Source of the DNA: Pseudomonas sp. B21-056
GTDB taxonomy: Bacteria > Pseudomonadota > Gammaproteobacteria > Pseudomonadales > Pseudomonadaceae
DNA length: 64,000 nt
Direction: 5' to 3'
Assembly: GCF_026016325.1 (NCBI RefSeq)
Contig: NZ_CP087203.1
Span: 2,604,001 to 2,668,000, forward strand
Shown here: one piece after another, positions 40,459 through 58,702 of the stretch
Position numbering within the stretch: position 1 is the first letter of the stretch
Layout of the letters: each line of letters opens with the position of its first letter
Position numbers and translations under genes: made by a program
Notes under the pieces: model-generated
Told to the model about the DNA's origin: nothing
Seen by the model: only the letters and a program-made list of their open reading frames with translations
Databases searched by the model: none

Positions 40459-41376
40459 TCAGAACCGAACAGCCGCATCGCTTTCGATGGCTTCTGCCGC
40501 CGCCAGTGTATTTTTCATCAAGCAGGCGACAGTCATCGGGCCGACACCGCCTGGAACGGGTGTAATGGCTGCTGCGACATTCCTGGCAGAGTTGAAGTCG
40601 ACGTCGCCCACCAGAAGCGGTGCGCCATTTTTCTCGACCCTGTTGATGCCTACATCAACCACGATGGCTCCCGGCTTGATCGCCGTTGCGTCGATGAATT
40701 CCGCCCGACCGATGGCGACCACCAGGATGTCGGCCTGGCGACATTCGTTGTTCAGATCCCGCGTGCGGGAGTGGACAATCGTGACGGTGCAGTTTTCCTG
40801 CAGCAGCAGATTCGCCATTGGCTTTCCAACGATGTTTGACCTGCCGACAATTACCGCCTTTTTGCCGCCAAGGTCGCCAAGCTGATCTTTCAGCATCATC
40901 AGGCATCCCAGCGGCGTGCATGGAATCAATTTGGCTCTGCCCTGACCCAGCAGACCCACATTCACCGGATGGAAACCGTCGACATCCTTGGCCGGGTCGA
41001 TGGCCGCGATGACCTTTGACTCATCGATATGCTCAGGTAACGGAAGTTGAACGAGAATCCCATGTACGTAACGGTCATTGTTGAGCTTGTCGATCAAGCT
41101 CAACAGCTGCGTTTCGGAGGTGTCCCTCTCCAGCAGATGCGGAAACGAATCGATTCCGGACTCCAGGGCATTTTTCATCTTGGTTCTCACATAGACCTGG
41201 CTCGCAGGATCGCTGCCTACGAGTACGACAGCCAGCCCGGGCGCCCGGCCGCGTTTCTCCCGGAAGGCCCTTGCGCCGATGGCGACATCCTTGCGCAATG
41301 TTTCGGCAAATGCTTTCCCATCAATGATGGTGGCCTGCGCGTTGGGCGCGTTATCCAAAGCGTGTGTCACGGTCAT
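40459..41376 (-). CDS. folD: Methylene-tetrahydrofolate dehydrogenase / cyclohydrolase FolD (copy 2)
   Basis: A 305-residue FolD with the same motifs as copy 1: [60 protein letters not shown] and [16 protein letters not shown]. The two window copies are clearly paralogous but not near-identical. ATG 41376 has AGGA at about -9; an ATG at 41391 is a weaker option. It follows the dimethylglycine-dehydrogenase-like gene by 61 bases on the same strand and should oxidise the methylene-THF which that enzyme makes. Confidence 0.95.
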
Positions 41377-41437
41377 TTTCGTCCTACCCATTAACAGTCA
41401 GATAGCTGCCTCCATCTGCATGAAGGCAGTCGCATAA

Positions 41438-43867
41438 TCAGGATTTCAAGCGTTTGCCTTCAGGGTCGTAAAGGCACCCACGGACAACCTTCGCGGAGCG
41501 CTCTTCACCCAGGATCCACAGGGTGAGTTCAGTACCCGGGAGCGAAAAATCGCGCTTGATAAAGCCCATTGCCAGGCTTTTCTGCACACGGTAGCCGTAG
41601 CCTCCCGATGTCGTCAGGCCCACGGGACGCCCCTGATGGAAAACCGGCTCGCTGCCCAACGCGTCGGCGGCGCCACTTTGTACCTCCATGAGGACCAGAC
41701 GGTGCGTACCGGGCTGCTCTTTTTCAGCAAGCACCGCAGCGCGTCCTTCGAATTCACCCTTATCGGTCTTTATGAAGTGGCCCAGATTGGCAGCCAGCGC
41801 CGAGTACTCGGTGCTCAACTCACGCCCCCAGATCTGGTAACCCTTTTCGAGACGCATCGAGTCCATTGCCCGGAGCCCGAAGTCGACAATTCCATGGGGC
41901 TCTCCTGCCCAGGCGAGGGCTTCATAAAGTGCCTGCTGATGCTGAATGGGGTGGTGCAGTTCCCATCCCAACTCCCCGACAAAATTCATCCGCAGTGCGC
42001 GCACCGGCGCCCCCACAATCTGGATCTCCTGTCCGGTAAACCAGGGGAATGCTTCATTGCCCAGATCGGCGTCGGTCAGTTTCGACAGCACCGTTCGGGC
42101 TTCGGGGCCCGCCAGGACAAGCGTGCCGTAGGCCCTTGTGATGTTCGCAATCGATACATCAGTGTATTTGGTCGCTCGTTGTCGTAACCAGTCTTCAATC
42201 AACAGTTCGCAAGCTGCCGGGCACATCAGGTAAAACGTGCCATTCTCCAGCAACGTCATGGAGAACTCCCAGGCGATACTACCCGACGGCGTGAGGACAT
42301 GGGCGAGCGCTACATCCCCGGGGTGAGCGGGGACCCGATTGGGACTGATTCGATCCAGGAACAGACGAGCGTCTTCCCCGGAGATTTCGAATTTCGTGAA
42401 GGCACTCAGGTCGAGGATGCCTACGCGATGCTGCACGGCTTCGCATTCCGCTCGTACCGCCGCGTCCCAATTACCACGGCGATAGGTGAATTGCTCGGCC
42501 GGCTCTTCGGTAGTGCGTGCGAACCAACTGGCACGCTCCCAACCGTAATAGGCTCCGAACACCGCGCTCTTGTGCTTGAGCAACTCGTATATCGGCGTGG
42601 TCTTGATTTCACGGCACGCTGGGCGCATCGCATACTCATTCGGGCAGCTCAACTGATACTCGTTGGCGTACAGCTCCAGCGATTTGGTGACGGTATAGGC
42701 AAGGTCGGCATAGGTGCCGAAGCGACGGGAGTCCAGCTCCCAGAGATCGACCTCCGGGTGGCCGTCGATGATCCACTGGGCGAGGTAACGCCCCGCGCCT
42801 CCGCCCTGGGTAATCCCGAAACTGAAACCCACGCAGGCGAAGTAGTTGTCATAGCCGTGTACCGGGCCAAGCAAGGGAAGGCCATCTGGCGTGTACACGA
42901 TCGGACCGTTGATCACGGTCTTGATACCGCCGTCACCGATGATACCCACCTGTTCCATTGCCGCACCGATGATGTCTTCGAGTCGGGACAGTTCCGGTTG
43001 CAGCAGTTCCTGGCCGAATGTCGCGGGGACGCCATCTACTCCCCAGGCCACTGGCTCATGTTCGTAAGGGCCGAGTATCAGACCCTTTCCTTCCTGGCGA
43101 AGGTAGTAGGAAATGTCCGGGTCGCGCAGCAGGGGGAGGTGGTCGGGTCTATCCAACAGGGCCGGAATATTGTCGGTCACCAGATACTGGTGCTCCAGGG
43201 AGCAAATGGGAAACTGGTGGCCGATCATCGCCGCGATTTCGTTCGCCCTGAAGCCTGCGGCGTTGACGATGATGTCAGCATGGATCACGCCTTGCTCGGT
43301 CGTCACTTTCCATTTTTTGTCCGCGAGCTGTGTAATCGCGGTGACGGGGTTGTGCCGAATGATCGTCGCGCCATAACCGCGCGCCAGTTGGGCCATGGCG
43401 TTGGTGATACTGGTGGGGTCAATATGGCCGTCGTAAGGATCCCAAAGACCGCCCAACAACCCGGTGGTGTCCAGGAAGGGATGTAGTTCCTTCAAGCGTT
43501 CATTGGTGACGACCTCGACGCCCTCCAGCCCAGCAAGTGCGGCGAGGCCGACCACGCGCTTGAACTCGTCCAGGCGTTCCTGGGTATGGGCAAGACGGAT
43601 TGACCCTGTCTGGTGGTGACCGACCGATTGCCCGGTCTGCTCGGCGAGTTGCCGGTACAGTTCAATGCTGTTTTTCTGAAGCTTCATGATGTTCAGGCTG
43701 GTGCTGAACGAAGGAAGGTTGCCCGCCGCGTGCCAGGTCGAACCCGACGTCAGCTCCAGCTTCTCCACCAGCATGACATCGGTCCAGCCGGACTTGGCCA
43801 GATGATAAAGCGTGCTCACACCGGTAATACCACCACCTACCACCAGAACTCTGGCTTCCGATTTCAT
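41438..43867 (-). CDS. FAD-dependent demethylase with GcvT domain, dimethylglycine dehydrogenase-like
   Basis: An 809-residue flavoprotein with an N-terminal DAO-type FAD domain (VLVVGGGITGVSTLYHL, 7-23) and a C-terminal GcvT-type tetrahydrofolate domain (about 430-800). GSTWHAAG holds His46, the residue that covalently carries FAD in mitochondrial dimethylglycine dehydrogenase. Other stretches recall that enzyme from memory: GHHQTGSIRLA, DGHIDPTSIT, YYLRQEGKGLILGPYE, INGPIVYTPDGLPLLGP and ALRMNFVGELGWELHHP. It should remove an N-methyl group as methylene-THF and pass electrons to ETF. It is divergent from a LysR gene, with ATAAG-N5-CTTAT between them, and followed by folD. The substrate is not proved. 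Confidence 0.9.
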   Translation of the reverse strand: MKSEARVLVVGGGITGVSTLYHLAKSGWTDVMLVEKLELTSGSTWHAAGNLPSFSTSLNIMKLQKNSIELYRQLAEQTGQSVGHHQTGSIRLAHTQERLDEFKRVVGLAALAGLEGVEVVTNERLKELHPFLDTTGLLGGLWDPYDGHIDPTSITNAMAQLARGYGATIIRHNPVTAITQLADKKWKVTTEQGVIHADIIVNAAGFRANEIAAMIGHQFPICSLEHQYLVTDNIPALLDRPDHLPLLRDPDISYYLRQEGKGLILGPYEHEPVAWGVDGVPATFGQELLQPELSRLEDIIGAAMEQVGIIGDGGIKTVINGPIVYTPDGLPLLGPVHGYDNYFACVGFSFGITQGGGAGRYLAQWIIDGHPEVDLWELDSRRFGTYADLAYTVTKSLELYANEYQLSCPNEYAMRPACREIKTTPIYELLKHKSAVFGAYYGWERASWFARTTEEPAEQFTYRRGNWDAAVRAECEAVQHRVGILDLSAFTKFEISGEDARLFLDRISPNRVPAHPGDVALAHVLTPSGSIAWEFSMTLLENGTFYLMCPAACELLIEDWLRQRATKYTDVSIANITRAYGTLVLAGPEARTVLSKLTDADLGNEAFPWFTGQEIQIVGAPVRALRMNFVGELGWELHHPIQHQQALYEALAWAGEPHGIVDFGLRAMDSMRLEKGYQIWGRELSTEYSALAANLGHFIKTDKGEFEGRAAVLAEKEQPGTHRLVLMEVQSGAADALGSEPVFHQGRPVGLTTSGGYGYRVQKSLAMGFIKRDFSLPGTELTLWILGEERSAKVVRGCLYDPEGKRLKS

Positions 43868-44011: not shown

Positions 44012-44887
44012 ATGTCATTGACCAATCTTCAGCTCAACTGGCTTCGGACTTTTGAATCGGTCGGGCGACATTTGAGCTTCTCGGCGGCGGCGATTGAATT
44101 GAACATGAGCCAGTCTGCGGTCAGTCAGCAGATAAAATTGCTTGAGCACAAACTTGGCAAAGCGCTATTCCTGAGGCAAACCCGTTCCATCCAACTGACC
44201 GTGTCGGGGCGCGCTTACCTGGCAGTCGTGCGGGAAGGTCTTTGGCATATGCACCAAGGGATGAACAACATCTTCAGTTCGGTTGCCCAGGGTGTTCTCG
44301 AGTTGAGTGTGAACAACTCCTTTGCACAACTGTGGCTGGCCCCGCGCATGGAGCGGTTTGCAGCGCTGTATCCGCAAATATCCCTGCGTATGTACGGTGT
44401 CAACTGGGAAGCCGATGCTCCACCTACCAGTGCAGAACTGGAGATTCGTTATGGTGCGGGTAACTGGCAGCAATACGATATTCAGCAGCTTCTCTCGACC
44501 GAGCTGAAGCCGTACTGCTCACTCGACGTTGCCGCCAAACTGCGTAACGCAGGAGGGTTGCTCAGCCTGCCTTTGATCGATGTTCTGGGTACCCCCAATG
44601 GCTGGAGCGACTGGTTGGCTACTTATCCGCAAGGGGAGGCGGAGAACTACCAGCGATTCTACGTCGACAGTTACGCGATTTCGGCAAGCATGGCCATTGA
44701 AAACGCGGGCGTGTGCCTGCTCAACGAAGAACTCGTGGAGAAATCCAGGCTGCGTGGGCAGCTTGTTTCACCCCTCGATCAAAGCATCGAATGCCTCGCC
44801 GGCTTCTACCTGTTGAAGCCGCATAACAAACCGCTGTCAGGGGCTGCTCAAGCTTTTTGCACCTGGTTGGAGTCGGAGCTTCGTTAA
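44012..44887 (+). CDS. LysR-family regulator, GcvA-like
   Basis: A 291-residue LysR protein. The HTH reads LRTFESVGRHLSFSAAAIEL followed by NMSQSAVSQQIKLLEHKLGK (about 11-50), a GcvA-like form. The sensor domain carries LSVNNSFAQLWLAPRMERFA and ends near 291. AAGG is before the ATG. It is divergent from one demethylase and upstream of the ETF-QO and ETF genes. Three identical-arm inverted repeats, ATAAG-N5-CTTAT, stand at its own promoter and at those two units, so it is the likely master regulator of the N-demethylation island. An N-methylated amino acid or glycine is a plausible effector. Confidence 0.93.
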   Translation: MSLTNLQLNWLRTFESVGRHLSFSAAAIELNMSQSAVSQQIKLLEHKLGKALFLRQTRSIQLTVSGRAYLAVVREGLWHMHQGMNNIFSSVAQGVLELSVNNSFAQLWLAPRMERFAALYPQISLRMYGVNWEADAPPTSAELEIRYGAGNWQQYDIQQLLSTELKPYCSLDVAAKLRNAGGLLSLPLIDVLGTPNGWSDWLATYPQGEAENYQRFYVDSYAISASMAIENAGVCLLNEELVEKSRLRGQLVSPLDQSIECLAGFYLLKPHNKPLSGAAQAFCTWLESELR

Positions 44888-44973: not shown

Positions 44974-45064
44974 TAATTAGTGGCTTATACATTGTTTGTT
45001 GTGGGCACGAAGTCGCTCGTACTCTGGGCTCCAAAGGCTATTTCTGATGCCTGTGGAGGTTTTG

Positions 45065-46717
45065 ATGCAACGCGAAGCCATGGAGTTTGATGTCGTCGTC
45101 GTGGGTGGAGGGCCCGCCGGATTGTCTGCCGCGATTCGCCTGCGTCAGTTGGCGATAGCAGAAGGACGGGAGCTGAGTGTATGTCTCGTCGAAAAAGGTG
45201 CAGAGGTTGGCGCGCACATCATGTCCGGCGCTGTTTTTGAACCTGGAGCGCTGAACGAGTTATTTCCCGACTGGCAAAGCATGGGGGCCCCGTTGAACAC
45301 CCCGGTGCAGTCTGACGAAATCTTCTATCTGTCGTCTTCGAGACTGTCCATCAGGGTGCCTGGGGTATTCGTACCCCGCACGATGCACAACGATGGGAAC
45401 TACATTGTCAGTCTCGGTAACCTGTGCCGTTGGTTGGGACAACAAGCGGAGGCCCTGGGCGTCGATGTGTTCCCGGGGTTTCCTGCGTCCGATGTCCTGT
45501 ATGACGAAGAGGGCAGGGTCAGAGGCGTTGTGACCGCCGATATGGGGGCTGGTCGCACCGGCGAGCAGAAGATGGGCTTCACCCCAGGTATCGAGCTGAT
45601 CGGTAAGCAGACTGTTTTTGCCGAAGGCTGTCGCGGACACCTGGGGAAACAGCTGATAAGCAAGTACCACCTCGACGTCGACTCAGACCCTCAACACTAT
45701 GGGTTAGGCATCAAGGAAGTCTGGGACATTCCTGCGCAGCAGCATGTTCCCGGCCTTGTGATCCATAGCACCGGATGGCCTTTGACCGGATCGGATACTC
45801 AGGGTGGCGCGTTCATGTATCACCTGGAAGATGGCACGGTGGTAATCGGGCAGGTGGTGGACCTCAACTATCACAATCCTCACCTGTCGCCATTTGATGA
45901 GTTCCAGCAACTTAAACATCACCCGCTTTACGAGCAGTATCTGCGTGGTGGTTCTCGGATCAGCTACGGTGCGCGAGCCATTGCCAAAGGCGGTTTGCAG
46001 TCGTTGCCTAGAATGCACTTCCCGGGGGGGCTGCTGATCGGGTGTGATGCCGGCACGCTGAATTTTGCCAAGATCAAAGGCTCCCACACCGCGATGAAGT
46101 CTGGAATGCTGGCGGCGGAGACGATCTATGAAGCGTTTGCTGTCGATGAGTCGGCAGGGCAGGACTTGTCTGCGTATGCGCGTAAATTCAGGGCCTCATC
46201 GATTTATGAGGAGCTTCACCAGCAACGTAACTTCGGGCCTGCCATGCACCGGTTCGGGAACTTGCTAGGCGCAGCATACGCCTGGATTGACTTGAATCTT
46301 TTCAACGGGACATTGCCCTGGACTTTGCGCGACAGTCGTCCCGACCACTCAACCCTGGACCTTGCAGGCAGCGCTTCGGTTATTCAGTACCCGAGACCGG
46401 ACAACGTGCTGAGTTTCGATAAGTCCTCTTCGGTCTACTTGTCGAATACCAACCATGAAGAAGACCAGCCTTGTCATCTGACCCTCAGGGACGCCTCGAT
46501 ACCCATCGGTTTCAACCTGCCCAACTATGCCGAGCCTGCGCAACGATATTGCCCTGCCGGTGTGTATGAAGTTGTGCAGGAGGCATCGCAGAGTCGACTC
46601 CAGATAAATGCGCAGAACTGCCTGCACTGCAAAACCTGTGACATCAAGGATCCGAGTCAAAACATTGTCTGGCGTGCACCCGAGGGCGGCGGGGGCCCCA
46701 ATTACACCAGCATGTAG
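45065..46717 (+). CDS. Electron transfer flavoprotein-ubiquinone oxidoreductase (ETF-QO)
   Basis: A 550-residue membrane-associated flavo-iron-sulfur protein that passes electrons from reduced ETF to ubiquinone. The FAD site is VVVVGGGPAGLSAAIRL (10-26), GCRGHLGKQL is a family segment, and one 4Fe-4S cluster is held by Cys496 (YCPAGVYE) and Cys519, 522 and 525 (NCLHCKTCDIKDP). The ubiquinone-site region KGGLQSLPRMHFPGG is present. The frame opens at 44996, but the ATG at 45065 has GGAGG six bases upstream. It is placed between the LysR gene and etfBA, so it looks dedicated to this pathway rather than general. Confidence 0.93.
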   Translation: MQREAMEFDVVVVGGGPAGLSAAIRLRQLAIAEGRELSVCLVEKGAEVGAHIMSGAVFEPGALNELFPDWQSMGAPLNTPVQSDEIFYLSSSRLSIRVPGVFVPRTMHNDGNYIVSLGNLCRWLGQQAEALGVDVFPGFPASDVLYDEEGRVRGVVTADMGAGRTGEQKMGFTPGIELIGKQTVFAEGCRGHLGKQLISKYHLDVDSDPQHYGLGIKEVWDIPAQQHVPGLVIHSTGWPLTGSDTQGGAFMYHLEDGTVVIGQVVDLNYHNPHLSPFDEFQQLKHHPLYEQYLRGGSRISYGARAIAKGGLQSLPRMHFPGGLLIGCDAGTLNFAKIKGSHTAMKSGMLAAETIYEAFAVDESAGQDLSAYARKFRASSIYEELHQQRNFGPAMHRFGNLLGAAYAWIDLNLFNGTLPWTLRDSRPDHSTLDLAGSASVIQYPRPDNVLSFDKSSSVYLSNTNHEEDQPCHLTLRDASIPIGFNLPNYAEPAQRYCPAGVYEVVQEASQSRLQINAQNCLHCKTCDIKDPSQNIVWRAPEGGGGPNYTSM

Positions 46718-46879: not shown

Positions 46880-46967
46880 CTATATGCCTCATATAGATCG
46901 TTTGTAGGCGGCCATAGGGGCTTATAGCATCGGACTCCAGAGGTTCTGAACCTGTTTGGAGATAGCT

Positions 46968-47717
46968 ATGAAGGTGCTGGTGGCGGTGAAGCGCGTCGTA
47001 GATGCCAACGTCAAAGTCCGGGTCAAGGCGGACGAATCCGACGTTGAGTTAAGCAACGTGAAAATGTCGATCAATCCCTTTTGCGAGATCGCTGTAGAGG
47101 CGGCTCTGCAATTAAAGGAAAGCGGCCAGGCGAGTGAAGTCATTGCGGTTTCCGTGGGGCCTGACGCTTGTCAGGAGCAGTTGCGAACCGCGCTTGCAAT
47201 GGGGGCGGACCGGGCGATTCTGATCAAGGCGGGCGGTGATCTCGAACCCCTTGCGATTGCCAGGCTTCTCCACGTAGTCACCCAGCGTGAGGCTCCAGGC
47301 ATTGTGTTGCTGGGCAAGCAATCCATTGATGGTGACAACAACCAGACCGGCCAGATGCTTTCCGGGTTGATGGGCAGCGCTCAAGGTACCTTCGCTTCAC
47401 GAATCGACATAACCGGTGAGTGGGTCAACGTAACCCGCGAAGTAGACGGTGGGCTGGAAGCCAGAAGCCTGCGCCTGCCGGCCGTGATCACTGCGGATCT
47501 GCGCTTGAATGAACCGCGCTACGCCTCGCTTCCCAACATCATGAAAGCGAAGAAAAAACCCCTGGAGATCATTGACGCTGGCGAGTTGGGCGTCGATATC
47601 GCCCCTCGCTTGAAAGTCATCAAGGTTACCGCGCCTCCTGAGCGCAAGGCAGGTATTCGCGTGGGTAGCGTCGAGGAACTGGTCGAGAAACTGAAGAACG
47701 AAGCGGGGTTGATCTGA
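46968..47717 (+). CDS. etfB: Electron transfer flavoprotein beta subunit
   Basis: A 249-residue ETF beta chain, which binds AMP and docks the dehydrogenase. [39 protein letters not shown] (seen as [12 protein letters not shown]) and the recognition loop region [20 protein letters not shown] followed by [11 protein letters not shown] are all diagnostic. GGAGA sits before the ATG at 46968; an open frame starts four codons upstream. It shares one base with the etfA start. In this operon it should accept electrons from the two demethylases. Confidence 0.95.
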
Positions 47718-48655
47718 TGAGCGTTTTATTGATTGCCGAGCATCACGAAGGGGTTCTCAAATCAGGCACCTTGAACGCGCTCTCGGCTGCATCGAGCCTG
47801 GGAACGGAAGTCGAGATCCTGGTGGTGGGGCAGGGCGCGGGCAGCGTTGCAGAGGAACTGGCCGCTTTTGCAGGCGTAAGCCGCATCCTCATTGCCGATG
47901 CTCGCGCATATGCAGACCATGGGGTGGAGAATACCGCTGCCCTGGTCACTGAACGGGTGAAAACCTGCGCCTATGGTCATGTCGTTGCAGCCTCCACGGC
48001 GTATGGCAAGAACCTGCTGCCCCGCGTTGCCGCGTTGCTCGACGTGGCCCAGATCAGTGATGTTGTGGAAATTCTTTCCGCGAACACCTTCGTTCGGCCT
48101 TACTACGCCGGCAATGCCCTGGCGACGGTTGAAAGTTCTGACGCCGTGAAAGTAATGACCGTGCGCACCACTGCGTTCGCAGCCGCCGAAAAGGCCATGC
48201 AACTGGCCCCCATCGAGACCACTTCCGTTGCTCACGATACCGGTCTGTCCAAATTCCTGAGCGCCGATTTCGGCGTGTCCGACCGGGTCGAACTGACTTG
48301 CGCCAAGGTCATCATCTCAGGCGGCCGCGGAATGGGCAGTGGTGAGAATTTCGCGATGCTGGAAAAAGTTGCCGACAAGCTGGGGGGCGCTGTGGGTGCC
48401 TCTCGTGCGGCCGTCGATGCAGGGTTCGTCTCCAACGACCTGCAGGTGGGTCAGACCGGCAAGATCGTTGCGCCCGACTTGTACATCGCGGTCGGCATCT
48501 CCGGCGCCATTCAGCACCTGGCTGGCATGAAGGATTCAAAAATCATCGTCGCGATCAACAAGGACGAGGACGCACCCATCTTCCGGGTAGCGGACTACGG
48601 TCTGGTTGCCGATTTGTTCGAAGCCGTTCCAGCGCTTGAAGCCGCGCTGTCTTGA
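47717..48655 (+). CDS. etfA: Electron transfer flavoprotein alpha subunit
   Basis: A 312-residue ETF alpha chain that binds FAD. The C-terminal FAD domain is clear: VIISGGRGMGSGENF, ASRAAVDAGFVSNDLQVGQTG, APDLYIAVGISGAIQHLAGM and IVAINKDEDAPIFRVADYGLVAD, in order. The start codon shares one base with the etfB stop. Together with EtfB and ETF-QO it forms the chain from flavoprotein demethylase to ubiquinone. purU follows ten bases after the stop. Confidence 0.95.
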   Translation: MSVLLIAEHHEGVLKSGTLNALSAASSLGTEVEILVVGQGAGSVAEELAAFAGVSRILIADARAYADHGVENTAALVTERVKTCAYGHVVAASTAYGKNLLPRVAALLDVAQISDVVEILSANTFVRPYYAGNALATVESSDAVKVMTVRTTAFAAAEKAMQLAPIETTSVAHDTGLSKFLSADFGVSDRVELTCAKVIISGGRGMGSGENFAMLEKVADKLGGAVGASRAAVDAGFVSNDLQVGQTGKIVAPDLYIAVGISGAIQHLAGMKDSKIIVAINKDEDAPIFRVADYGLVADLFEAVPALEAALS

Positions 48656-49580: not shown

Positions 49581-52031
49581 ATGAGCAATACCGTTCCGAG
49601 TTCGGCTCGAGTCGTCATCGTCGGTGGTGGGGTTATCGGCTGCAGCGTTGCCTATCATTTGACCAAACTGGGCATCAAGGATGTTGTACTGCTGGAGCGC
49701 AAGACGTTGACCTGCGGTACGACCTGGCATGCTGCCGGCCTGGTGCCGACCTTGCGCGCCACTTACAACATGAGCATGTTGGCGAAATACAGCGCCGGGC
49801 TGTATGAAGGCCTTGAGGCCGAAACGGGCCAGGCCACGGGGTTCGTTCGCAACGGTTCGTTGAGCGTCGCAACTCACCAGGAACGTTTCACTGAGCTCAA
49901 GCGTGGTGCGTCAATGGCCAAACTGTGTGGGTTTCCGTGCGAAGTGGTTAACCCTGAGCAGGCACTCGAGCTTTGGCCACTGCTGAACATCGAGGACATC
50001 GTCGGTGGCGTGTACCTGCCGTTGGATGGTGTGGTCAATCCGGTCGATGTCACCCAGGCGCTCGCCAAGGGGGCTCGGATGGGCGGCGCAAGAATCATTG
50101 AAAACACCCAGGTCCTGGATATCAAGATCAAGGATGGCAAGGCGGCCGGCGTTGTCACGGCACAGGGCGATATCGACGCTGAGTTCGTCGTCAACTGTGC
50201 GGGCATGTGGGCGCGTAATTTCGGCAAGAAGGCGGGCGTCAATATTCCGCTGCATGCTGCCGAACACTATTACGTGGTTACGGAACCCATGGAGCAGATC
50301 AACGGCATCATGCTGCCGACCCTGCGTGACCTGGATTACTACAACTACTTCAAGACCGACGCCGGCAAGTTGCTGATCGGCACCTTCGAACCCAATGCCA
50401 AGCCGTGGGGACATGAAGGTATTCCCGATAGCTTCAGCTTTGATGAGTTGCCGCCTGATTTCGACCATTTGGAACCCTATCTGGAAGCGGCAATCCGTCG
50501 TATCCCGGCGCTGGAAAAAACCGGATTGCAGGTCTTCTTCAATGGTCCGGAAAGCTTTACCCCCGATGACCGCTATCACCTGGGCGAAGCACCTGAGCTA
50601 CGTAACTATTTTGTCGCCGCGGGCTTCAATTCCGTGGGTATCCAATCTGCGGGTGGCGCTGGAAAGGTGTTGGCCGAATGGATTGCCAAAGGTCACGCCC
50701 CTATGGATCTGTGGGACGTGGACATCAAGCGCAATCTTCCCTTCCAGGGTAACTCCCAGTACCTGTATGACCGCACCACTGAGGGGCTGGGCCTGCTGTA
50801 CGCCATGCATTGGCCGTTCCGTCAGTTCGAGACGGCGCGTAACGCTCGCAAAAGTATCCTCCATGATCGTCTGGTGGCCGCCAATGCCTGCTACGGCGAG
50901 GTTGTCGGTTGGGAGCGGGCCAACTTCTTTGCACCCGAGGGCGAGAAGCCGGAATACGGCTACAGCTGGGGCAAGCAGAACTGGTTCGCGTGGTCGGCCG
51001 CCGAACACAATGCGGTGCGTAATGCGGTCGGGCTGTTCGATCAGAGTTCCTTTGCAAAAATCCTCGTCCAGGGGCGCGATGCAATGCCGGTGCTGAACCG
51101 CATCTGCAGCAATAACATCGATGTCGAGCCGGGGCGGATCGTGTACACCCAGTGGCTCAATGAGCGCGGTGGTATCGAGGCGGACCTGACCGTCACGCGC
51201 CTTGAGAAAGACTCCTTTCTCATCGTCACGGGACCATGGACCCAGGCCCGTGAGCTTGCCTGGCTGCGTCGCAACACGCTGGCAGAAGCGAATGTGGTGT
51301 TCACCGATGTGACTTCGTCGATGGCGGTGATCAGCGTGATGGGCCCCAATGCCCGAAGTTTGCTGCAACCGCTGACCACGGACGATCTTTCCAACGAAGG
51401 TTTCCCGTTTGCTACGTCCAGGGAGATCGAACTGGGTTACGCCCGTGTACGTGCCTCGCGCATCACTTATGTTGGGGAGTTGGGTTGGGAGTTATACATC
51501 CCTACCGAATTCGCCCCGGATGTCTTCGACCGGATCGTCGCCGCCGGTGAGCCCCATGGCCTGAAGTTGTGCGGCTACCACGCGCTCAACTCCCTGCGGA
51601 TCGAGAAGGGCTATCGCCATTTTGGTCACGATGTCATGGAAGAAGACACACCTCTGGAAGCCGGGTTGTCGTTTGCTTCCGACTTCAGTAAAGCGGGCGG
51701 TTTCATTGGCAAAGAGGCACTGCTCAAGCAGAAAGCCGCAGGCGTCAGGAAACGCATGGTGCTGTTCAAGTTCCTTGATCCCGAGGCCACCAACTATCAC
51801 GAGGAGCCGATCTATCGGAACGGAGAAATTGTTGGTCGCACCACCTCGGGCATGTACGGCCACTACATCGGCGGCAACGTTGCCATGGGTTACGTTTGCA
51901 ACGATGAAGGCGCAACGACCGATTGGGTAAAGGAAGGCAAATACGAGATTGAAGTAGCCACGAAACGGTATGAGGTCGAGGCCAGCCTTCGTGCCTTCTA
52001 CGACCCGGAAATGAGTCGGATCAAGTGCTGA
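49581..52031 (+). CDS. FAD-dependent demethylase with GcvT domain, sarcosine dehydrogenase-like
   Basis: An 816-residue flavoprotein of the same fold as the gene at 41438 but of another branch. The FAD motif is VVIVGGGVIGCSVAYHL (11-27), with His50 in TTWHAAGLVPTLRA, the covalent-flavin position in this family. GPESFTPDDRYHLGEAPELR, AAGFNSVGIQSAGGAGKVLA, NSLRIEKGYRHFGHD and DTPLEAGLSFASDF recall mitochondrial sarcosine dehydrogenase from memory. The C-terminal GcvT domain (about 430-810) includes RITYVGELGWELYIP. It should demethylate a secondary N-methylamine, such as sarcosine, to methylene-THF with ETF as acceptor. GGAG lies before the ATG. Confidence 0.9.
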   Translation: MSNTVPSSARVVIVGGGVIGCSVAYHLTKLGIKDVVLLERKTLTCGTTWHAAGLVPTLRATYNMSMLAKYSAGLYEGLEAETGQATGFVRNGSLSVATHQERFTELKRGASMAKLCGFPCEVVNPEQALELWPLLNIEDIVGGVYLPLDGVVNPVDVTQALAKGARMGGARIIENTQVLDIKIKDGKAAGVVTAQGDIDAEFVVNCAGMWARNFGKKAGVNIPLHAAEHYYVVTEPMEQINGIMLPTLRDLDYYNYFKTDAGKLLIGTFEPNAKPWGHEGIPDSFSFDELPPDFDHLEPYLEAAIRRIPALEKTGLQVFFNGPESFTPDDRYHLGEAPELRNYFVAAGFNSVGIQSAGGAGKVLAEWIAKGHAPMDLWDVDIKRNLPFQGNSQYLYDRTTEGLGLLYAMHWPFRQFETARNARKSILHDRLVAANACYGEVVGWERANFFAPEGEKPEYGYSWGKQNWFAWSAAEHNAVRNAVGLFDQSSFAKILVQGRDAMPVLNRICSNNIDVEPGRIVYTQWLNERGGIEADLTVTRLEKDSFLIVTGPWTQARELAWLRRNTLAEANVVFTDVTSSMAVISVMGPNARSLLQPLTTDDLSNEGFPFATSREIELGYARVRASRITYVGELGWELYIPTEFAPDVFDRIVAAGEPHGLKLCGYHALNSLRIEKGYRHFGHDVMEEDTPLEAGLSFASDFSKAGGFIGKEALLKQKAAGVRKRMVLFKFLDPEATNYHEEPIYRNGEIVGRTTSGMYGHYIGGNVAMGYVCNDEGATTDWVKEGKYEIEVATKRYEVEASLRAFYDPEMSRIKC

Positions 52032-52423
52032 ATCAGCTGGGCCGGCGCTGAGTAGACCCGGTTCGAAAATCTCATAACAACAAGTCGATTGAGTCGTGCA
52101 GAGCCCGGAGATCCTGCTCCGGGCCAGGCAAGAAATCGCGGAGACAACAATGAATGCAAAATGCATCGCCAGGGCGAAGTCGTCGACAACCCGGTCGGGT
52201 TCGCAGCTTTGTGCCGTTCCATCACACCCTATCGACTTCGGGTTCGCACTGAGCCCTTTCTGCCGAAAGATTCCTCTTGAGCTTGCCGTGCCGACGATCA
52301 GCTGCGGGCGTCCATACGCCTGATTGATTCCGTCTCACGATATCGCGAGCAAGAGAAACGTACGAGTGCCGTTCACGACGACTTCGTACATAGCCGATCA
52401 GAGAGTTGCAGAAAGGTGGTCAC
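52032..52423. other. 392-base intergenic region before the ABC importer
   Basis: It holds a hairpin, GCCCGGAG-N6-CTCCGGGC (52103-52124), with no T run, probably ending the demethylase transcript. A 57-codon open frame (52150-52323) follows a good GGAG site but gives an unremarkable Ser/Pro/Cys-rich product, so I do not call it a gene. A near-palindrome, CTCACGATATCGCGAG (52334-52349), could be an operator for the importer. Confidence 0.5.
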
Positions 52424-53518
52424 ATGCAAGCAGAATCCTTTGTGAGTTTTCGCAATGTCCAGAAGAGCTACGACGGTGAAAACCTCGTGGTCAAGAACTT
52501 CAATCTGGATATTCAGCGCGGCGAATTCATCACCATGCTTGGCCCTTCGGGCTCGGGTAAGACAACGTGCCTCATGATGCTGGCGGGTTTTGAAACCGTT
52601 ACCCATGGAGAAATCTCCATCGACCGCCAACCGGTCAACGATATTTCGCCACAGAAGCGCGGTATCGGCATGGTTTTTCAGAACTATGCATTGTTCCCGC
52701 ACATGACGATTGCGGAGAACCTGGCTTTCCCCCTCAAGGTTCGAGGACTGTCTTCGAGCGATATCCAGGACAAGGTCAAGATGTCCCTGGAGATGGTTGC
52801 CATGGGCGCCTTGGGCAATCGCATGCCCGCACAACTTTCAGGCGGTCAGAAACAGCGTGTAGCGCTGGCCCGGGCACTGATCTTCGAGCCTCACCTGGTG
52901 CTCATGGACGAACCGCTGGGTGCGCTCGACAAGCAATTGCGTGAACAGATGCAATACGAGATCAAGCGTCTTTCAAAACAGTTGGGGATCACCGTCGTCT
53001 ATGTGACCCACGATCAAAGCGAAGCGCTCACCATGTCTGACCGCATTGCGGTCTTCAACGACGGAGTGGTCCAGCAACTGGCCAATCCATCCGACCTTTA
53101 TGAGAAGCCTGAAACGGCATTCGTGGCGAGCTTCATCGGAGAGAACAACAAGTTGATGGGGGAGGTCGTCGAGCGTGATGGCGACTATTGCCAGGTACAG
53201 GTCGGGAACCTGCGGGTAAAGGCTGTGGCAGCCAAGTCCGCGAGCACTGCCCGAGGAACGAAAACCACCTTGTCGATTCGCCCCGAGCGCGTGTATCTCG
53301 ATCCGGCCGATGGCCAATGCGATAACCGGCTGCCAGCGAAAATCCAGGAGTTGATCTATCACGGGGATCACCTGCGCCTGCGCCTCAGCGTCGCCGACCA
53401 AAATGATTTCGTCGTGAAAGTCGTCAACGGCGTCAATCAGCTCCGGCCGACTCCCGGCTCTCACGTGACTGTCGGTTGGCGCGCAGATGATTGTCGAGCG
53501 CTCAACACGGTTATCTAA
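52424..53518 (+). CDS. Spermidine/putrescine-type ABC transporter, ATP-binding protein (PotA-like)
   Basis: A 364-residue ATPase with a C-terminal TOBE-type regulatory domain (about 285-360). Walker A is GPSGSGKT (40-47), the Q-loop GMVFQNYALFPHM, the signature LSGGQKQRVALARAL, Walker B LVLMDEPLGALD and the switch VTHDQSEALTMSDR. AAAGGTGG precedes the ATG at 52424; an ATG-less extension of six codons exists. It energises the two permeases that follow. The transporter class handles polyamines, betaines and opine-like amines, consistent with import of an N-methylated substrate for this island. Confidence 0.93.
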   Translation: MQAESFVSFRNVQKSYDGENLVVKNFNLDIQRGEFITMLGPSGSGKTTCLMMLAGFETVTHGEISIDRQPVNDISPQKRGIGMVFQNYALFPHMTIAENLAFPLKVRGLSSSDIQDKVKMSLEMVAMGALGNRMPAQLSGGQKQRVALARALIFEPHLVLMDEPLGALDKQLREQMQYEIKRLSKQLGITVVYVTHDQSEALTMSDRIAVFNDGVVQQLANPSDLYEKPETAFVASFIGENNKLMGEVVERDGDYCQVQVGNLRVKAVAAKSASTARGTKTTLSIRPERVYLDPADGQCDNRLPAKIQELIYHGDHLRLRLSVADQNDFVVKVVNGVNQLRPTPGSHVTVGWRADDCRALNTVI

Positions 53519-53549
53519 CTTTCGTCACCGCCTGCACGGAGATCACTCC

Positions 53550-54830
53550 ATGAATCGCCCTGTAATTTCTGAAGGGCCTGCGGATCGGCTGTATGTGCCG
53601 CCGAAGGTGGGTCAATCAATAAAGGAAAGCCTGGATAAGGCCGAGCGTCGCAACAAATTCAAATCCGTGCTCCTGGTTTTGCCATTGCTGGCGTTTATCG
53701 CCGTCTTCTTTCTCATGCCTATCGGCGACATGCTGATGCGCAGCGTGCAGAACGCAACGCTCGCCACCTACATGCCGAAAAGTGCAGTCGAGTTGAAACA
53801 GTGGGATCGGCAGGCACTGCCCGAGGAAAAGATGTTTGCGATCGTCGGCAGCGAGATCCTCGGTCTTCTCAGCTCCCAGGAGCTGGATCGGGTCGGTACC
53901 GATTTGAACCGTGTCCAGAGCGGTATGAAGCTGCTCTTGAACAAGACGGCGAGGGGGCTGGAGAAACAGGGCCCGGCCGGTATCGTCGAGTTCAAGCCGC
54001 TGATGATCGGCATCGACAAGCGGTGGGGAGAGACGGCGACCTGGTCCCAGCTCAAAGTGATGGCACCTTCGATTTCCGCGGTGCATTACCTGGCCGCGCT
54101 GGATCGCCAGTTCGACGACAACGGTGACGTCGTCAAGCAGCCCGAAAGCCGGCAGATCTATGTCGACAATCTGCTGAGAACACTCGCCGTCAGTGCTGCA
54201 ATCACGGTGATCTGTTTTCTGCTGGGCTATCCGCTGGCGTACTTCCTGGCGTGCCTGCCGGATCGCCTCAGCAACCTCTTGATGATCCTGGTATTGCTTC
54301 CCTTCTGGACATCGTTGCTGGTGAGGACGAGCGCCTGGATCGTGATTCTCCAGTCCAACGGGGTTTTCAATGAGGTCCTGCGCAGCCTGGGCATCATCGA
54401 TCAGCCCCTGGATCTGATGTACAACCTGTACGGCACGATCATCGCCATGACGCATATCCTGCTGCCCTTCATGGTGCTTCCCCTCTATAGCGTCATGAGA
54501 GGGATCGATCAGACCTACATCCGTGCGGCGCACTCGATGGGTGCCAGCTCGATGCGCACATTTTTCAGAATCTACTTCCCGCTTTCCCTGCCCGGGGTCA
54601 GTGCTGGAGGCATTCTCGTGTTCATTCTTGCGGTGGGTTACTACATCACGCCTGCGCTGGTGGGGGGCCGGACCGGCCAGATGGTCAGCAATTTCATCGC
54701 CTATCACATGCAGACGTCATTGAACTGGGGCCTGGCGTGCGCAATCGCCAGCCTGCTTCTGGTGGTGGTGTTGCTGATGTACTGGGTCTACGACCGATTC
54801 GTAGGCATTACCAATATGAAGTTGGGGTGA
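53550..54830 (+). CDS. ABC transporter permease (PotB-like) with a large periplasmic insert
   Basis: A 426-residue permease, much longer than the usual PotB (about 280-310). After the first membrane segment (VLLVLPLLAFIAVFFLMPIG, about 35-54) comes a polar region of about 140 residues, rich in charged residues and without a membrane segment, before the normal five-helix block starting at VDNLLRTLAVSAAITVICF. The EAA loop is in RAAHSMGASSMRTFFRIYFP. The insert should lie in the periplasm and may contact the binding protein. ATG 53550 follows GGAGATCACTCC; an open frame upstream overlaps the ATPase gene. Confidence 0.92.
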   Translation: MNRPVISEGPADRLYVPPKVGQSIKESLDKAERRNKFKSVLLVLPLLAFIAVFFLMPIGDMLMRSVQNATLATYMPKSAVELKQWDRQALPEEKMFAIVGSEILGLLSSQELDRVGTDLNRVQSGMKLLLNKTARGLEKQGPAGIVEFKPLMIGIDKRWGETATWSQLKVMAPSISAVHYLAALDRQFDDNGDVVKQPESRQIYVDNLLRTLAVSAAITVICFLLGYPLAYFLACLPDRLSNLLMILVLLPFWTSLLVRTSAWIVILQSNGVFNEVLRSLGIIDQPLDLMYNLYGTIIAMTHILLPFMVLPLYSVMRGIDQTYIRAAHSMGASSMRTFFRIYFPLSLPGVSAGGILVFILAVGYYITPALVGGRTGQMVSNFIAYHMQTSLNWGLACAIASLLLVVVLLMYWVYDRFVGITNMKLG

Positions 54831-54833
54831 TTC

Positions 54834-55682
54834 ATGAGCCTTCCAAACTACATCGGGCCTGTCGAGCGCTGCTGGTTTTTCACCGTGCGTGGGTTTGCCT
54901 TGCTCGTATTGCTTTTCCTGGTCGTGCCGATTCTGGTGATCATCCCCTTGTCCTTTAACGTGGAACCCTACTTCAGTTTCACCACGGACATGCTGCACCT
55001 GGATCCTGAGGCGTTTTCCCTGCGCTGGTATCGGCAGTTGGTCAACGACCCGCTTTGGATACTGTCAATCAAGAACAGCTTCCTGGTGGCGGCGGGTGCA
55101 ACGGTGATTGCAACAGCGCTGGGGACACTTGCCTCTATCGGGCTGAGTCGCTCCGACCTGCCCTGCAAGCGCCTGCTCACCGGCATCCTGATTTCCCCGA
55201 TGATCGTTCCAGTGATCATTTCAGCCGCCGGCATGTACTTTTTCTACAGCAAACTGGGGATCGGCCAGAGCCTGTTCGCGTTGATTCTCTCGCATGCCGT
55301 CCTGGGTACGCCCTTCGTCATTCTGACCGTCACCGCGACGCTCGTTGGGTTTGATCATTCCCTGACTCGCGCCGCCGCCAGCATGGGGGCCTCCACCACC
55401 TACACGTTTTTCAGGGTGACGTTCCCGCTCATCCGTCCCGGGATCATTTCAGGGGGGCTGTTCGCCTTTATCACTTCGTTCGACGAGGCCGTAGTCGTTC
55501 AGTTTCTAGGGGGCGTCGAGCAACGCACCATCCCTCGTCAGATGTGGTCCGGGATGCGTGAGCAGATCAGCCCCACGATTCTCGCTGCTGCAACGTTGTT
55601 GATCGCTTTGTCTGTCCTGCTGTTGTTGTCCATCGAAGTCCTGCGTCGCCGTTCGCTCCGCATCCGCGGAATCAATCACTGA
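54834..55682 (+). CDS. ABC transporter permease (PotC-like)
   Basis: A 282-residue inner-membrane permease with six predicted segments, the first being GFALLVLLFLVVPILVIIPL. The ATPase-docking EAA loop is RAAASMGASTTYTFFRVTFP followed by LIRPGI. Size and motif positions are those of PotC. Its ATG is three bases past the stop of the partner permease, so the two are translationally coupled. The binding-protein gene follows after 21 bases. Confidence 0.94.
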   Translation: MSLPNYIGPVERCWFFTVRGFALLVLLFLVVPILVIIPLSFNVEPYFSFTTDMLHLDPEAFSLRWYRQLVNDPLWILSIKNSFLVAAGATVIATALGTLASIGLSRSDLPCKRLLTGILISPMIVPVIISAAGMYFFYSKLGIGQSLFALILSHAVLGTPFVILTVTATLVGFDHSLTRAAASMGASTTYTFFRVTFPLIRPGIISGGLFAFITSFDEAVVVQFLGGVEQRTIPRQMWSGMREQISPTILAAATLLIALSVLLLLSIEVLRRRSLRIRGINH

Positions 55683-55703: not shown

Positions 55704-56762
55704 ATGAAAAAGATGTTGATGTGCGCGCTGACAAGCCTCGCCTGCGTATCGGCGATGGCACAAGATAACTTGACGATTGTCACCTACGGTGGCTCGTTGG
55801 CGGCCGCTCAAACCAAGGCGGCTATCAAACCATTCAGCGAGAAGACCGGCGTGAAGACCACGCTGGAAGATTACTCCGGTGGCATCGCCCAGCTTAAGTC
55901 CCAGGTCGAGACCAAAAGCGTCACGTGGGACGTTGTCGATATGGAGCTGCCGGACGCAGTACGAGCCTGTAACGCGGGGCTGTTCGAACGCATCAATCCG
56001 AGCAAGGATCTGGAGCCGGGAGCGAACGGGGCCCCTGCCGATGTGGACTTCATCTCGGGGGCTGTGACCGATTGTGCCGTGGCGAGCATCATCTGGTCGA
56101 CAGTCGTTGCCTACAACGTAAACGCCTTCAAGGGTGAGCAGCCTGTCGCCCTGAAGGATTTCTTCGACATCAATAAATTTCCTGGCAAACGTGGCCTGCG
56201 CAAGTCTCCCCAGGGGACGTTGGAGTGGGCACTGTTGGCCGACGGGGTACCTCGCAAGGAAGTCTATTCGGTGCTGGAAACCGAGGCCGGGATCGAGCGT
56301 GCTTTTGCAAAACTGGACACGATCAAGAGCCAGGTGATCTGGTGGGAAGCGGGCGCACAGCCGCCACAACTGCTTGCTGACGGGCAAGTCGTGATGACCT
56401 CGGCATGGAATGGACGTATCTGGGCTGCCCAGACTCAAGAGAAACAGCCGTTCAAGATTATCTGGGATGGACAACTGTACGACATGGACGTCTGGGCCGT
56501 GCCGGCAGGCAGCAAGAACAAGGCACGGGCAATGGAGTTCCTGAAGTTCGCCACCAGCACACCGGTTCTGGCGCAGCAAAGCCAATACATCGCCTATGGG
56601 CCGACGCGTAAATCCTCACAGGCATTGGTCAGTGCCGAGATGCAGCCACATCTGCCGACCTCTGCGGAAAACTTCAAGACGGCCGTGCAAATGAATGCCG
56701 AATGGTGGGGAGATCACGCTGATGAACTCAATGAGCGCTTCAATGCCTGGCTGACCAAGTAA
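55704..56762 (+). CDS. ABC transporter periplasmic binding protein (PotD/PotF-like)
   Basis: A 352-residue solute-binding protein with a short signal peptide (MKKMLMCALTSLACVSAMAQ, cut near AMA-Q). LTIVTYGGSLAAAQTKAAIK, WDVVDMELPDAVRACNAG, WWEAGAQPPQLLADGQVVMTSAW and KARAMEFLKFAT are typical of the family. Several Trp residues (as in SAWNGRIWAAQ) could form an aromatic cage for a methylated ammonium group. It closes the importer operon, and a strong hairpin follows. The ligand is inferred only from the demethylase genes beside it. Confidence 0.93.
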   Translation: MKKMLMCALTSLACVSAMAQDNLTIVTYGGSLAAAQTKAAIKPFSEKTGVKTTLEDYSGGIAQLKSQVETKSVTWDVVDMELPDAVRACNAGLFERINPSKDLEPGANGAPADVDFISGAVTDCAVASIIWSTVVAYNVNAFKGEQPVALKDFFDINKFPGKRGLRKSPQGTLEWALLADGVPRKEVYSVLETEAGIERAFAKLDTIKSQVIWWEAGAQPPQLLADGQVVMTSAWNGRIWAAQTQEKQPFKIIWDGQLYDMDVWAVPAGSKNKARAMEFLKFATSTPVLAQQSQYIAYGPTRKSSQALVSAEMQPHLPTSAENFKTAVQMNAEWWGDHADELNERFNAWLTK

Positions 56763-56805: not shown

Positions 56806-56906
56806 GACTTCGATTGATGCCGGCCCGGGCTGTGAGCTGGCCTGGGTTCATGGGTGAGGCATCTGAACCCGGTTGTTTGCAGACATCAACTTTGAGGTGA
56901 AGACAA

Positions 56907-57332
56907 ATGAAAATGGTACCCCGACTGACATTGGCCGATGCTCATCACATCATGCAGGCTTGCCTGGCTAAAGCCCGGGAACTGGCCGTTGATATGGACA
57001 TTGCCATTACCGATGATGCCGGTCATCTGATCATGTTCCAGCGCATGGACGGCGCGCGCGTCACCAGTATCGATATCGCCATCAGCAAATCCTTCACGGC
57101 CGCTGCTGCCCGCAAGTCGACGCGTTCCTATGGCGACATCAGCGTGCCGGGTAAACCGGCGTTCGGCATCAACACCAGCAACCAAGGGCGATTTTCCATC
57201 GTCGCTGGCGGGCTGCCGCTGTTCATGCAGGAGTTCATCGTCGGTGGCGTCGGCTGCAGCTCCGGTACCCCTGATCAGGATGAGATGGTGGCGCAGGCCG
57301 GTGTCAATGCTTTTACTGCCTATCTCAACTGA
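56907..57332 (+). CDS. GlcG/HbpS-like (DUF336) protein
   Basis: A 141-residue cytoplasmic protein of the GlcG/HbpS family (haem-degrading domain family). The core is LADAHHIMQACLAKARELAV, DIAITDDAGHLIMFQRMDGA, then SKSFTAAAARKSTRSYG and GGLPLFMQEFIVGGVGCSSGTPDQDEMVAQAG. Family members have been linked to haem or small-ligand binding, but their role in metabolic operons is poorly known. It has a ribosome site (GAGGTGAAG) and precedes glyA by 113 bases. A second family member, GlcG, is at 61051-61452. Confidence 0.85.
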   Translation: MKMVPRLTLADAHHIMQACLAKARELAVDMDIAITDDAGHLIMFQRMDGARVTSIDIAISKSFTAAAARKSTRSYGDISVPGKPAFGINTSNQGRFSIVAGGLPLFMQEFIVGGVGCSSGTPDQDEMVAQAGVNAFTAYLN

Positions 57333-57445
57333 TCGCATCCTCCCTTTCCGATCTTCCAGACATTAGTGGTCTTCCTCGACCCGCTCCGGCGTGTTCGATT
57401 CCTGGACCCGACAACAACAAGAAAAAGTAGTAGGAGAAACCCGCT

Positions 57446-58702
57446 ATGTTCAGCCAGCACGATCAAATCCAGGGTTACGACGACGCACTGTGCAGGGCCA
57501 TCGACGCCGAGGAACGCCGTCAGGAGCTGCATATCGAGCTGATTGCGTCGGAGAACTACACCAGCCGGCGAGTCATGGAAGCCCAGGGCAGCGGCCTGAC
57601 CAACAAGTACGCTGAGGGTTATCCTGGCAAGCGCTACTACGGCGGTTGCGAGCATGTCGACCAGGTCGAGCAACTGGCCATCGATCGGGCAAAGACGCTT
57701 TTTGGTGCTGATTACGCCAATGTCCAACCGCATTCCGGTAGCCAGGCCAACGCGGCTGTCTACCTCGCACTCCTTCAGGCGGGGGACACGGTGTTGGGCA
57801 TGAGCCTGGCTCACGGCGGACATCTTACCCATGGCGCCAGCGTCAGTTTTTCCGGGAGGCTTTACCATTCGGTGCAGTACGGTATCGATACGGTGACTGG
57901 CGTGATTGATTACGACGAAGTCGAACGGCTGGCGTTAGAGCATCAGCCGAAGATGATCATTGCCGGCTTCTCAGCCTATTCGAAAACCCTGGATTTCCCG
58001 CGCTTTCGTGCGATTGCCGATAAGGTCGGGGCATATCTGTTCGTTGACATGGCTCATGTTGCCGGACTGGTCGCGGCTGGTCTGTATCCGAATCCGCTGC
58101 CCCATGCTCATGTGGTTACCACGACGACGCACAAGACGCTGCGCGGACCTCGTGGCGGTTTGATCCTCGCCAAGGGGCATGAAGACCTGTGGAAAAAACT
58201 CAACGCCGCGGTCTTTCCCGGCGGTCAGGGTGGCCCGCTGATGCATGTGATTGCAGCCAAGGCGGTGTGCTTCAAGGAGGCCCTGGAGCCGGGTTTCAGA
58301 ACGTATCAGGAGCAGGTCATCAAGAACGCCAGGACGATGGCGGACATATTCATCCAGCGTGGTTATGACGTGGTTTCCGGTGGCACCGATAACCATCTGT
58401 TCCTGGTGAGTCTGATCCGCCAATGCCTGACGGGCAAGGATGCCGATGCTGCCTTGGGCCGGGCTCATATCACGGTAAACAAGAACGCCGTTCCGAACGA
58501 TCCACAATCGCCGTTCGTAACCTCCGGCCTGCGGATCGGAACGCCTGCGGTGACCACCCGTGGGTTTCGGGAACTCGAATGCGGCGCTCTTGCGAACTGG
58601 ATCTGCGACATCCTCGACAGCCTTGGCGATAGCGACGTAGAGGCTCGTATCGCTCGCCAGGTTGCAGCGCTGTGCGAGCGATATCCGGTCTATAGCGCCT
58701 GA
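57446..58702 (+). CDS. glyA: Serine hydroxymethyltransferase
   Basis: A 418-residue PLP enzyme that converts glycine plus methylene-THF to serine and back. [19 protein letters not shown] opens the fold, the PLP Lys is K230 in [16 protein letters not shown], and [17 protein letters not shown] is the diagnostic stretch. Length is normal. AGGAG precedes the ATG. Placed at the end of an N-demethylation island it can use both products of dimethylglycine/sarcosine breakdown, glycine and methylene-THF. It is likely a specialised copy beside a housekeeping glyA elsewhere. The convergent malate synthase gene follows. Confidence 0.96.

Follow-up and report, generated by a model that had tools for sequence, protein, structure and literature searches.

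Human dimethylglycine dehydrogenase (DMGDH) binds its FAD covalently through a histidine, has a His/Tyr dyad in common with the bacterial oxidase, and carries Ala and Ile in place of the Pro and Val of that oxidase (available sections of PMC5082570). Genes named dmgdh and sardh, the latter for sarcosine dehydrogenase (SARDH), have already been described in SAR11 and Roseobacter (available sections of PMC3160333 and PMC4744692), so finding a DMGDH/SARDH pair in a bacterium has precedent. Bacterial relatives of the mitochondrial enzymes carry these names by analogy. Here, we analyzed a stretch of 64,000 nucleotides from Pseudomonas sp. B21-056 (contig NZ_CP087203.1, positions 2,604,001 to 2,668,000), hereafter the window; the genome is a single contig of 6.45 Mb. 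Positions 40459-58702 of the window hold a cassette encoding two such enzymes, named here demethylases A and B. We propose, with a probability of about 0.6, that this would be a catabolic cassette combining import by an ATP-binding cassette (ABC) transporter with a two-step N-demethylation, coupled to tetrahydrofolate (THF) and linked to an electron transfer flavoprotein (ETF), of an N-methylated compound resembling an amino acid.

Demethylase A (809 aa, DMGDH-like, 41438..43867, minus strand) and demethylase B (816 aa, 49581..52031, plus strand) each contain the Pfam domains DAO, FAO_M, GCV_T and GCV_T_C. Among solved structures, both are closest to DMGDH: A matches entries 4pab and 5l46 with 645 and 637 bits over query residues 2-800, and B matches 4pab with 502 bits and the Arthrobacter dimethylglycine oxidase (DMGO, 1pj5) with 369 bits. 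Since homology reaches E values of 1e-149 and 1e-192, the fold of A and B can be considered settled, and judged by their domains and full-length matches they are members of the DMGDH/DMGO superfamily. Both were aligned to the human DMGDH and DMGO chains, and the gatekeeper positions were identified by the Ala/Pro and Ile/Val differences in the alignment. In this alignment, the covalent-flavin histidine of the TWHAAG motif, which an earlier note on this DNA had ascribed to both flavin-GcvT demethylases, is confirmed as H46 in A and H50 in B. The DMGO dyad His225/Tyr259 aligns with H226/Y255 of A and H229/Y256 of B. The gatekeepers are of the dehydrogenase type, A48/I352 in A and A52/I354 in B, and not the Pro/Val of dimethylglycine/sarcosine oxidases. 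A thus shows the domain set, covalent-flavin histidine, dyad and gatekeepers of DMGDH (EC 1.5.8.4), and B the corresponding residues of SARDH (EC 1.5.8.3). Because the Ala/Ile gatekeepers, the histidine and the dyad are all kept, A and B look like dehydrogenases, which matches the dedicated ETF and ETF-ubiquinone oxidoreductase (ETF-QO) of the cassette. In its flavin loops, A has Asn50 and Gln354 in place of the Leu and His of human DMGDH.

All the genes named in the earlier note are full-length open frames, folD and A being transcribed leftwards and the genes from the LysR regulator through serine hydroxymethyltransferase (SHMT) rightwards. Downstream from A lies folD, encoding methylene-THF dehydrogenase/methenyl-THF cyclohydrolase (40459..41391, minus strand; NF010785, 435.6 bits, cut-off 396). 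All further genes are on the plus strand. Divergent from A is a GcvA-like LysR regulator (44012..44887; PRK11139 GcvA, 201.6 bits, under the cut-off of 288), which is 84% identical to the LysR adjoining B in another genome (G380); an operator palindrome was sought in the A-LysR intergenic gap and no inverted repeat was found there. The dedicated ETF-QO (44996..46717; PF05187, PF21162) is one of two in the genome, a second ETF/ETF-QO set being located at 4.54 Mb. It is followed by ETF beta (46956..47717; PF01012), ETF alpha (47717..48655; PF01012, PF00766) and purU, encoding formyl-THF deformylase (48666..49523; NF004684, 410 bits, cut-off 223). We re-placed the purU start, which is most likely the ATG at 48666 after a GAGGAG motif rather than the mechanically called TTG at 48606. 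Beyond B, a Pot-type ABC transporter is encoded by a PotA-type ATPase gene (52406..53518; TIGR01187, 372.3 bits, cut-off 355.6), two permease genes (53487..54830, with a long N-terminus, and 54834..55682; both PF00528) and a periplasmic substrate-binding protein (SBP) gene (55704..56762; PF13416), whose product is the probable gatekeeper for the substrate. A small open reading frame (ORF) at 56907..57332, which we take by eye to be GlcG/HbpS-like, has no NCBIfam match at 1e-30; it is a member of the cassette, as it is 83% identical over 140 aa to its counterpart (L093) in the cassette of genome G060, where it also sits next to SHMT. The last gene is glyA, encoding SHMT (57446..58702; NF000586, 651.7 bits, cut-off 335). 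The claim that the demethylases have their own ETF, ETF-QO, folD, purU, SHMT and importer is therefore borne out by the profile matches, and gene set and active-site residues together support a self-contained, THF-linked N-demethylation route that would be distinct from DgcAB/SoxBDAG.

In the proposed pathway, the transporter of the cassette would import the N-methylated compound. A would oxidize the tertiary amine, converting the N,N-dimethyl to the N-methyl form, and B the secondary amine, converting the N-methyl form to the free amine; we infer that A would act before B. The GcvT-like half of each enzyme would hand the carbon to THF as methylene-THF, while electrons would pass from A and B to the dedicated ETF, then to the dedicated ETF-QO and to quinone. 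FolD and PurU could convert methylene-THF to formate and free THF, and SHMT could divert methylene-THF to serine, providing a second exit. The genes would presumably be co-regulated.

The linkage between A and B recurs in other genomes. Counting the genome studied here, A was found in 2 of 199 genomes of the genus (E 1e-200) and 4 of 390 of the order (E 1e-250), and B in 2 of 199 (E 1e-200) and 19 of 390, respectively. A scan of genome contigs for A gave at least 596 confirmed loci, and among the best 80 of these, which were taken for analysis, 28 also carry a B ORF of at least 600 aa. In a mirror-tree comparison of 41 paired loci, the distances of A correlate with those of B (r 0.842), part of which is owed to shared species history; none of 10,000 permutations was as high (maximum 0.238). 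Chance adjacency of A and B was rejected on the basis of the 28 loci and of this correlation. Nearly the same cassette is found on four rhizobial plasmids (L098, L099, L106 and L107, from Agrobacterium, R. leguminosarum, S. fredii and A. vitis), with ETF-QO, folD, purU, a cupin-type regulator, a Pot-type ABC transporter, ETF, A and B, followed by an aminotransferase gene; SHMT was not detected in these four cassettes. In genomes G060, G388, G445 and G465, the demethylase set comes with a TauA-like importer in place of the Pot-type one, the TauA-like SBP of G060 scoring 199 bits, under the cut-off of 304. The distance from B to A is about 4.4 kb in G388, G445 and G465, and 14.2 kb in G060, whose SHMT is 74-80% identical to that of the window.

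We then compared the A relatives in a tree of 180 rows, built by a quick method with SH-aLRT support only, from which A and B ORFs shorter than 750 aa and identical rows had been dropped. The earlier note had likened one of the two demethylases to mitochondrial DMGDH and the other to SARDH. A shows the DMGDH architecture and active-site residues, but the clade of the window's A (17 rows, 100% support) lies outside a 38-row clade (100% support) of Pelagibacteraceae and MttB/corrinoid-linked enzymes, which holds the A relatives tied to glycine betaine genes, and the loop residues differ as well; the placement of human DMGDH, on a long branch, is unsure. The A relatives, without the window itself, were also sorted into classes by residue 50, with the loop SFG[IV]TA required in addition for the L-type (Leu50). 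The window's A belongs to the N-type (Asn50); of the 36 rows of this type, 28 have B within 13 kb and 5 have SoxA; this count scores G388, G445 and G465 as "no B", since they enter via short loci, although B is nearby. Gln354 is present in every N-type row except L078. Among the L-type rows, B is found in 2 of 38 and SoxA in 13 of 38, at the same distance. Both L-type rows near B (L017 and L161) are loci with two A paralogues of unlike active-site class, the copy paired with B being of the N-type in L017 and of the Q-type in L161. As judged from these residues, the active-site class of A differs from those of the glycine-betaine-linked bacterial DMGDHs and of human DMGDH. A special likeness to the mitochondrial route, as put forward in the earlier note, did not hold up, in view of the SAR11 and Roseobacter genes cited above and of Asn50/Gln354.

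The surroundings of the relatives suggest that substrates other than dimethylglycine could be involved. In a Rhizobiaceae metagenome-assembled genome, about 13 kb (L022, 9356-22424) unite A and B, the latter cut by the end of the stretch, with Xsc (80% to S. meliloti Xsc), genes for a TauABC-like importer and an MttB-like methyltransferase, and a MocR-type regulator. This locus is a candidate trimethyltaurine pathway. From 9 kb past A, G060 carries genes for an aminotransferase, MocR, alanine dehydrogenase, Xsc (1028 bits, cut-off 676) and Pta, and the B cassette of G553, a genome in which A was not found at E 1e-250, adjoins an aminotransferase gene 71% like that of G060 and SafD (858 bits, cut-off 700). 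The aminotransferase encoded after A-B on the R. leguminosarum plasmid passes the AptA equivalog (715 bits, cut-off 500), its best solved relatives being omega-amino-acid/beta-alanine:pyruvate aminotransferases; those of the three other rhizobial plasmids are 86-89% identical to it. A distant B relative in S. meliloti adjoins tauA, xsc and pta on one side and phosphonate genes on the other, and in Sinorhizobium, Phyllobacterium and Aminobacter B relatives are neighbours of aminoethylphosphonate genes. Between purU and folD on a tobacco-derived Arthrobacter plasmid lies a B homologue (44% identical), which we take to be mabO (4-methylaminobutanoate oxidase-like). The B family thus probably serves several N-methylated amines, given these relatives beside aminoethylphosphonate genes and between purU and folD. 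In addition, B homologues of about 53-55% were observed beside phnW, phnA and phnY in three loci (L169, L170 and L104, each at 12001-14478), and could possibly be N-methyl-aminoethylphosphonate demethylases. No paper on bacterial demethylation of methylated taurines was found in open-licence PubMed Central (PMC), and none by title there on THF-linked N-methyl-aminoethylphosphonate demethylation.

Within the N-demethylation reading, the substrate is quite possibly an N-methylated omega-amino acid of beta-alanine or taurine type, which we rank level with, or slightly above, dimethylglycine plus sarcosine, itself a minority option; a substrate of another kind, for example an N-methyl imino acid, is rather unlikely. 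If dimethylglycine were the substrate, A would be a dimethylglycine dehydrogenase and B a sarcosine dehydrogenase, SHMT would make serine from glycine and methylene-THF, and the route would handle imported dimethylglycine and sarcosine alongside the housekeeping DgcAB and SoxBDAG. This route, which the earlier note had offered as an alternative pathway, is held back by redundancy: the five genomes examined that combine B with a window-clade A (G000, G060, G388, G445 and G465, this genome included) all have GbcA (63-100%), DgcA (78-100%) and SoxA (63-100%) already, the three lying here at 5895361 (SoxA), 5905582 (GbcA) and 5919624 (DgcA). Together with the sister cassettes carrying taurine/beta-alanine-type genes, this redundancy weakens dimethylglycine/sarcosine as substrate, and the glycine-betaine-linked A relatives, with their Leu50 and SFG[IV]TA loop, are seldom near B; L017 and L161, moreover, hold a separate L-type A besides the B-paired copy. 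Conversely, DMGDH is the best solved relative of both enzymes, the LysR is GcvA-like, and R. pomeroyi SPO3400 and SPO3396 are named dimethylglycine and sarcosine dehydrogenase (available sections of PMC4744692); proteins for "predicted dimethylglycine and sarcosine" demethylation, as well as serine ammonia-lyase in R. pomeroyi, rose on glycine betaine (available sections of PMC12478193). Several of our own findings also weigh against the proposed explanation. The G060 cassette contains L-serine ammonia-lyase (694 bits) with SHMT (called as just 280 aa and perhaps incomplete), which would suit glycine as product, and in Azoarcus (L101) glyA and L-serine ammonia-lyase lie next to soxBDAG and an A of the L-type; both settings, like the SHMT of the window, fit a flow from glycine to serine and pyruvate. 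In Neorhizobium (L164), LysR, A and B stand with a Rieske protein, only 33% identical to GbcA, and carnitine 3-dehydrogenase, a setting resembling that of glycine betaine. Among the 20 genomes examined, six further B-bearing ones (G206, G273, G360, G434, G472 and G541) have beside B an A-like gene of only 40-46%, and their best DgcA match is 43%, their best GbcA 36% and their SoxA 35-63%, so the redundancy is shown for the window's own A clade only. Importers with SBPs 48-55% like that of the window also flank L-type A genes (L054 and L059), Asn50 may be ancestral, as the early-branching row L078 carries it, and the shared history behind the mirror-tree correlation belongs here too. Owing to the SHMT, serine ammonia-lyase and Neorhizobium clues, we keep dimethylglycine/sarcosine in play, though well short of even odds.

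Demethylation of an N-methylated taurine (dimethyltaurine, N-methyltaurine) or of N-methyl-beta-alanine, taken as the specific function of the cassette, is a tentative proposal. L022, the Xsc/Pta block of G060, the aminotransferase and SafD at the G553 cassette, the AptA-like enzyme after A-B on the four rhizobial plasmids and the S. meliloti relative, despite its phosphonate neighbours, speak for it. Against it, the importer of the window is of the Pot type and not TauA-like, and the window and its flanks of about 160 kb, the portion of the genome searched, yielded no Xsc (best thiamine-pyrophosphate-enzyme match 24%), no TauA-like SBP, no MttB and no sulfonate gene, whereas L022 and G060 have both Xsc and a TauA-like importer beside the demethylases; Xsc occurs at 2 of 7 TauA-importer loci, an association noticed post hoc, and the G060 SBP is under its cut-off. 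The window and flanks do encode class III aminotransferases, which resemble the rhizobial and taurine-linked enzymes at 26-38% (best 38%, L178). More broadly, and only as a speculative possibility, an N-type A partnered by B may act as a module that demethylates N-methylated omega-amino acids (N,N-dimethyltaurine/taurobetaine, N-methyl-beta-alanines), one that would have spread between Alpha- and Gammaproteobacteria with swapping of importers, the window holding the Pot-importer form. Among the open-licence PMC papers listed, none was found to describe this importer-swapping cassette or a division into classes by partner gene and loop residues. The importer itself gives no clear answer on the substrate: among solved proteins its SBP is nearest to 8jv1 (234 bits), an entry that gave no clue to the ligand, as no paper mentioning it was found in open-licence PMC, followed by GABA-sensor, polyamine-binding and opine-binding proteins. 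Its best plasmid-borne relatives lie in a hydroxyproline-like cluster of Vibrio (L167, 55%, genes read by eye) and in a putA/pruA cluster of Paraburkholderia (L165, 52%). These relatives, and hydroxyproline-type genes within the window, would agree with catabolism of an N-methylated imino acid of the proline betaine/hydroxyproline betaine series, tied to the cluster at 14.7-23.5 kb; the earlier note had raised proline betaine as an alternative. We consider this improbable, as one flavin demethylation would suffice after the quaternary-to-tertiary step where two enzymes are present, and neither the window nor its 160 kb flanks yielded a Rieske or MttB gene for the first step. Genome-wide, there are two Rieske alpha subunits, GbcA and another at 3.21 Mb. 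Still more improbable is a role in methylamine metabolism, in which A and B would demethylate tri- and dimethylamine to methylamine for an adjacent N-methylglutamate pathway. That pathway does adjoin the cassette, and a gene resembling trimethylamine N-oxide (TMAO) demethylase borders the B cassette of G553, but gmaS is present in 1 of 19 B-bearing genomes of the order sample (this one), compared with 46 of 371 others, and is lacking in G388, G445 and G465, which have A and B (G060 is outside the sample). A general methylamine link through the N-methylglutamate genes was rejected on these counts.

The cassette was probably spread by horizontal transfer. Third-position GC content is 0.64-0.76 in its genes and 0.79-0.83 in six flanking genes; since 29.5% of 61 windows across the flanks of 160 kb on either side are equally GC-poor, base composition is weak evidence for foreign origin. 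No near-identical DNA copies were found on plasmids, the best match spanning 6% of the query.

Several neighbouring clusters were also observed. An apparently complete N-methylglutamate (methylamine) pathway at 26506-40237 comprises soxA/soxB-like genes, a second folD and purU, gmaS (TIGR03105, 658 bits), mgsABC-like genes and amt, with a soxD-like ORF of 100 aa recognized by eye (29976-30278) and a soxG-like gene assigned by position alone, with no family match. This cluster is apparently independent of the cassette. No paper treating DMGDH, N-methylglutamate and ETF together was found in open-licence PMC. The TMAO-demethylase-like gene of G553 (L154, 10841-13171) scores 1053.6 bits, under the cut-off of 1100, and no gmaS match was found in that genome. 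The hydroxyproline-type catabolic cluster at 14716-23485 encodes an SBP, an ABC ATPase, a DapA-family protein, a DAO protein, an aldehyde dehydrogenase, a trans-3-hydroxyproline dehydratase-like protein (below cut-off) and a GntR regulator. Genes for RtcB and RNA 3'-terminal phosphate cyclase lie in tandem at 7138-9400.

By two flavin-loop positions, partner gene (B or SoxBDAG) and importer type, the bacterial relatives of DMGDH and SARDH fall into classes predicting different substrates. If the omega-amino-acid interpretation is true, the cassette would represent a degradation pathway for methylated taurines and beta-alanines, and many "dimethylglycine dehydrogenase" labels would need revision. 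Compared with known systems, the cassette shares with mitochondrial DMGDH (4pab, 5l46) the domain order, covalent-flavin histidine, dyad, Ala/Ile gatekeepers, THF domain and ETF/ETF-QO partners, but differs in the loop residues of A and in being a bacterial operon with an importer. The DMGDHs of SAR11 and those linked to MttB/corrinoid genes belong to the same superfamily, and ETF and ETF-QO adjoin some of them (L035, L037, L049, L051 and L072); they differ by their L-type loops, their separate, fully supported clade and their neighbours, SoxA being more frequent than B. The GbcAB-DgcAB-SoxBDAG route of Pseudomonas would follow the same overall chemistry if the substrate were dimethylglycine, whereas it uses an unrelated DgcA of the old yellow enzyme type for the dimethylglycine step and occupies a separate locus at 5.89-5.92 Mb. 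In the Arthrobacter plasmid region, purU and folD likewise flank a B homologue, but this actinobacterial region has a single demethylase, and the stretch read contains no annotated ETF. Finally, the Arthrobacter DMGO has the same domains and the aligned dyad, and is set apart from A and B by its Pro/Val gatekeepers.

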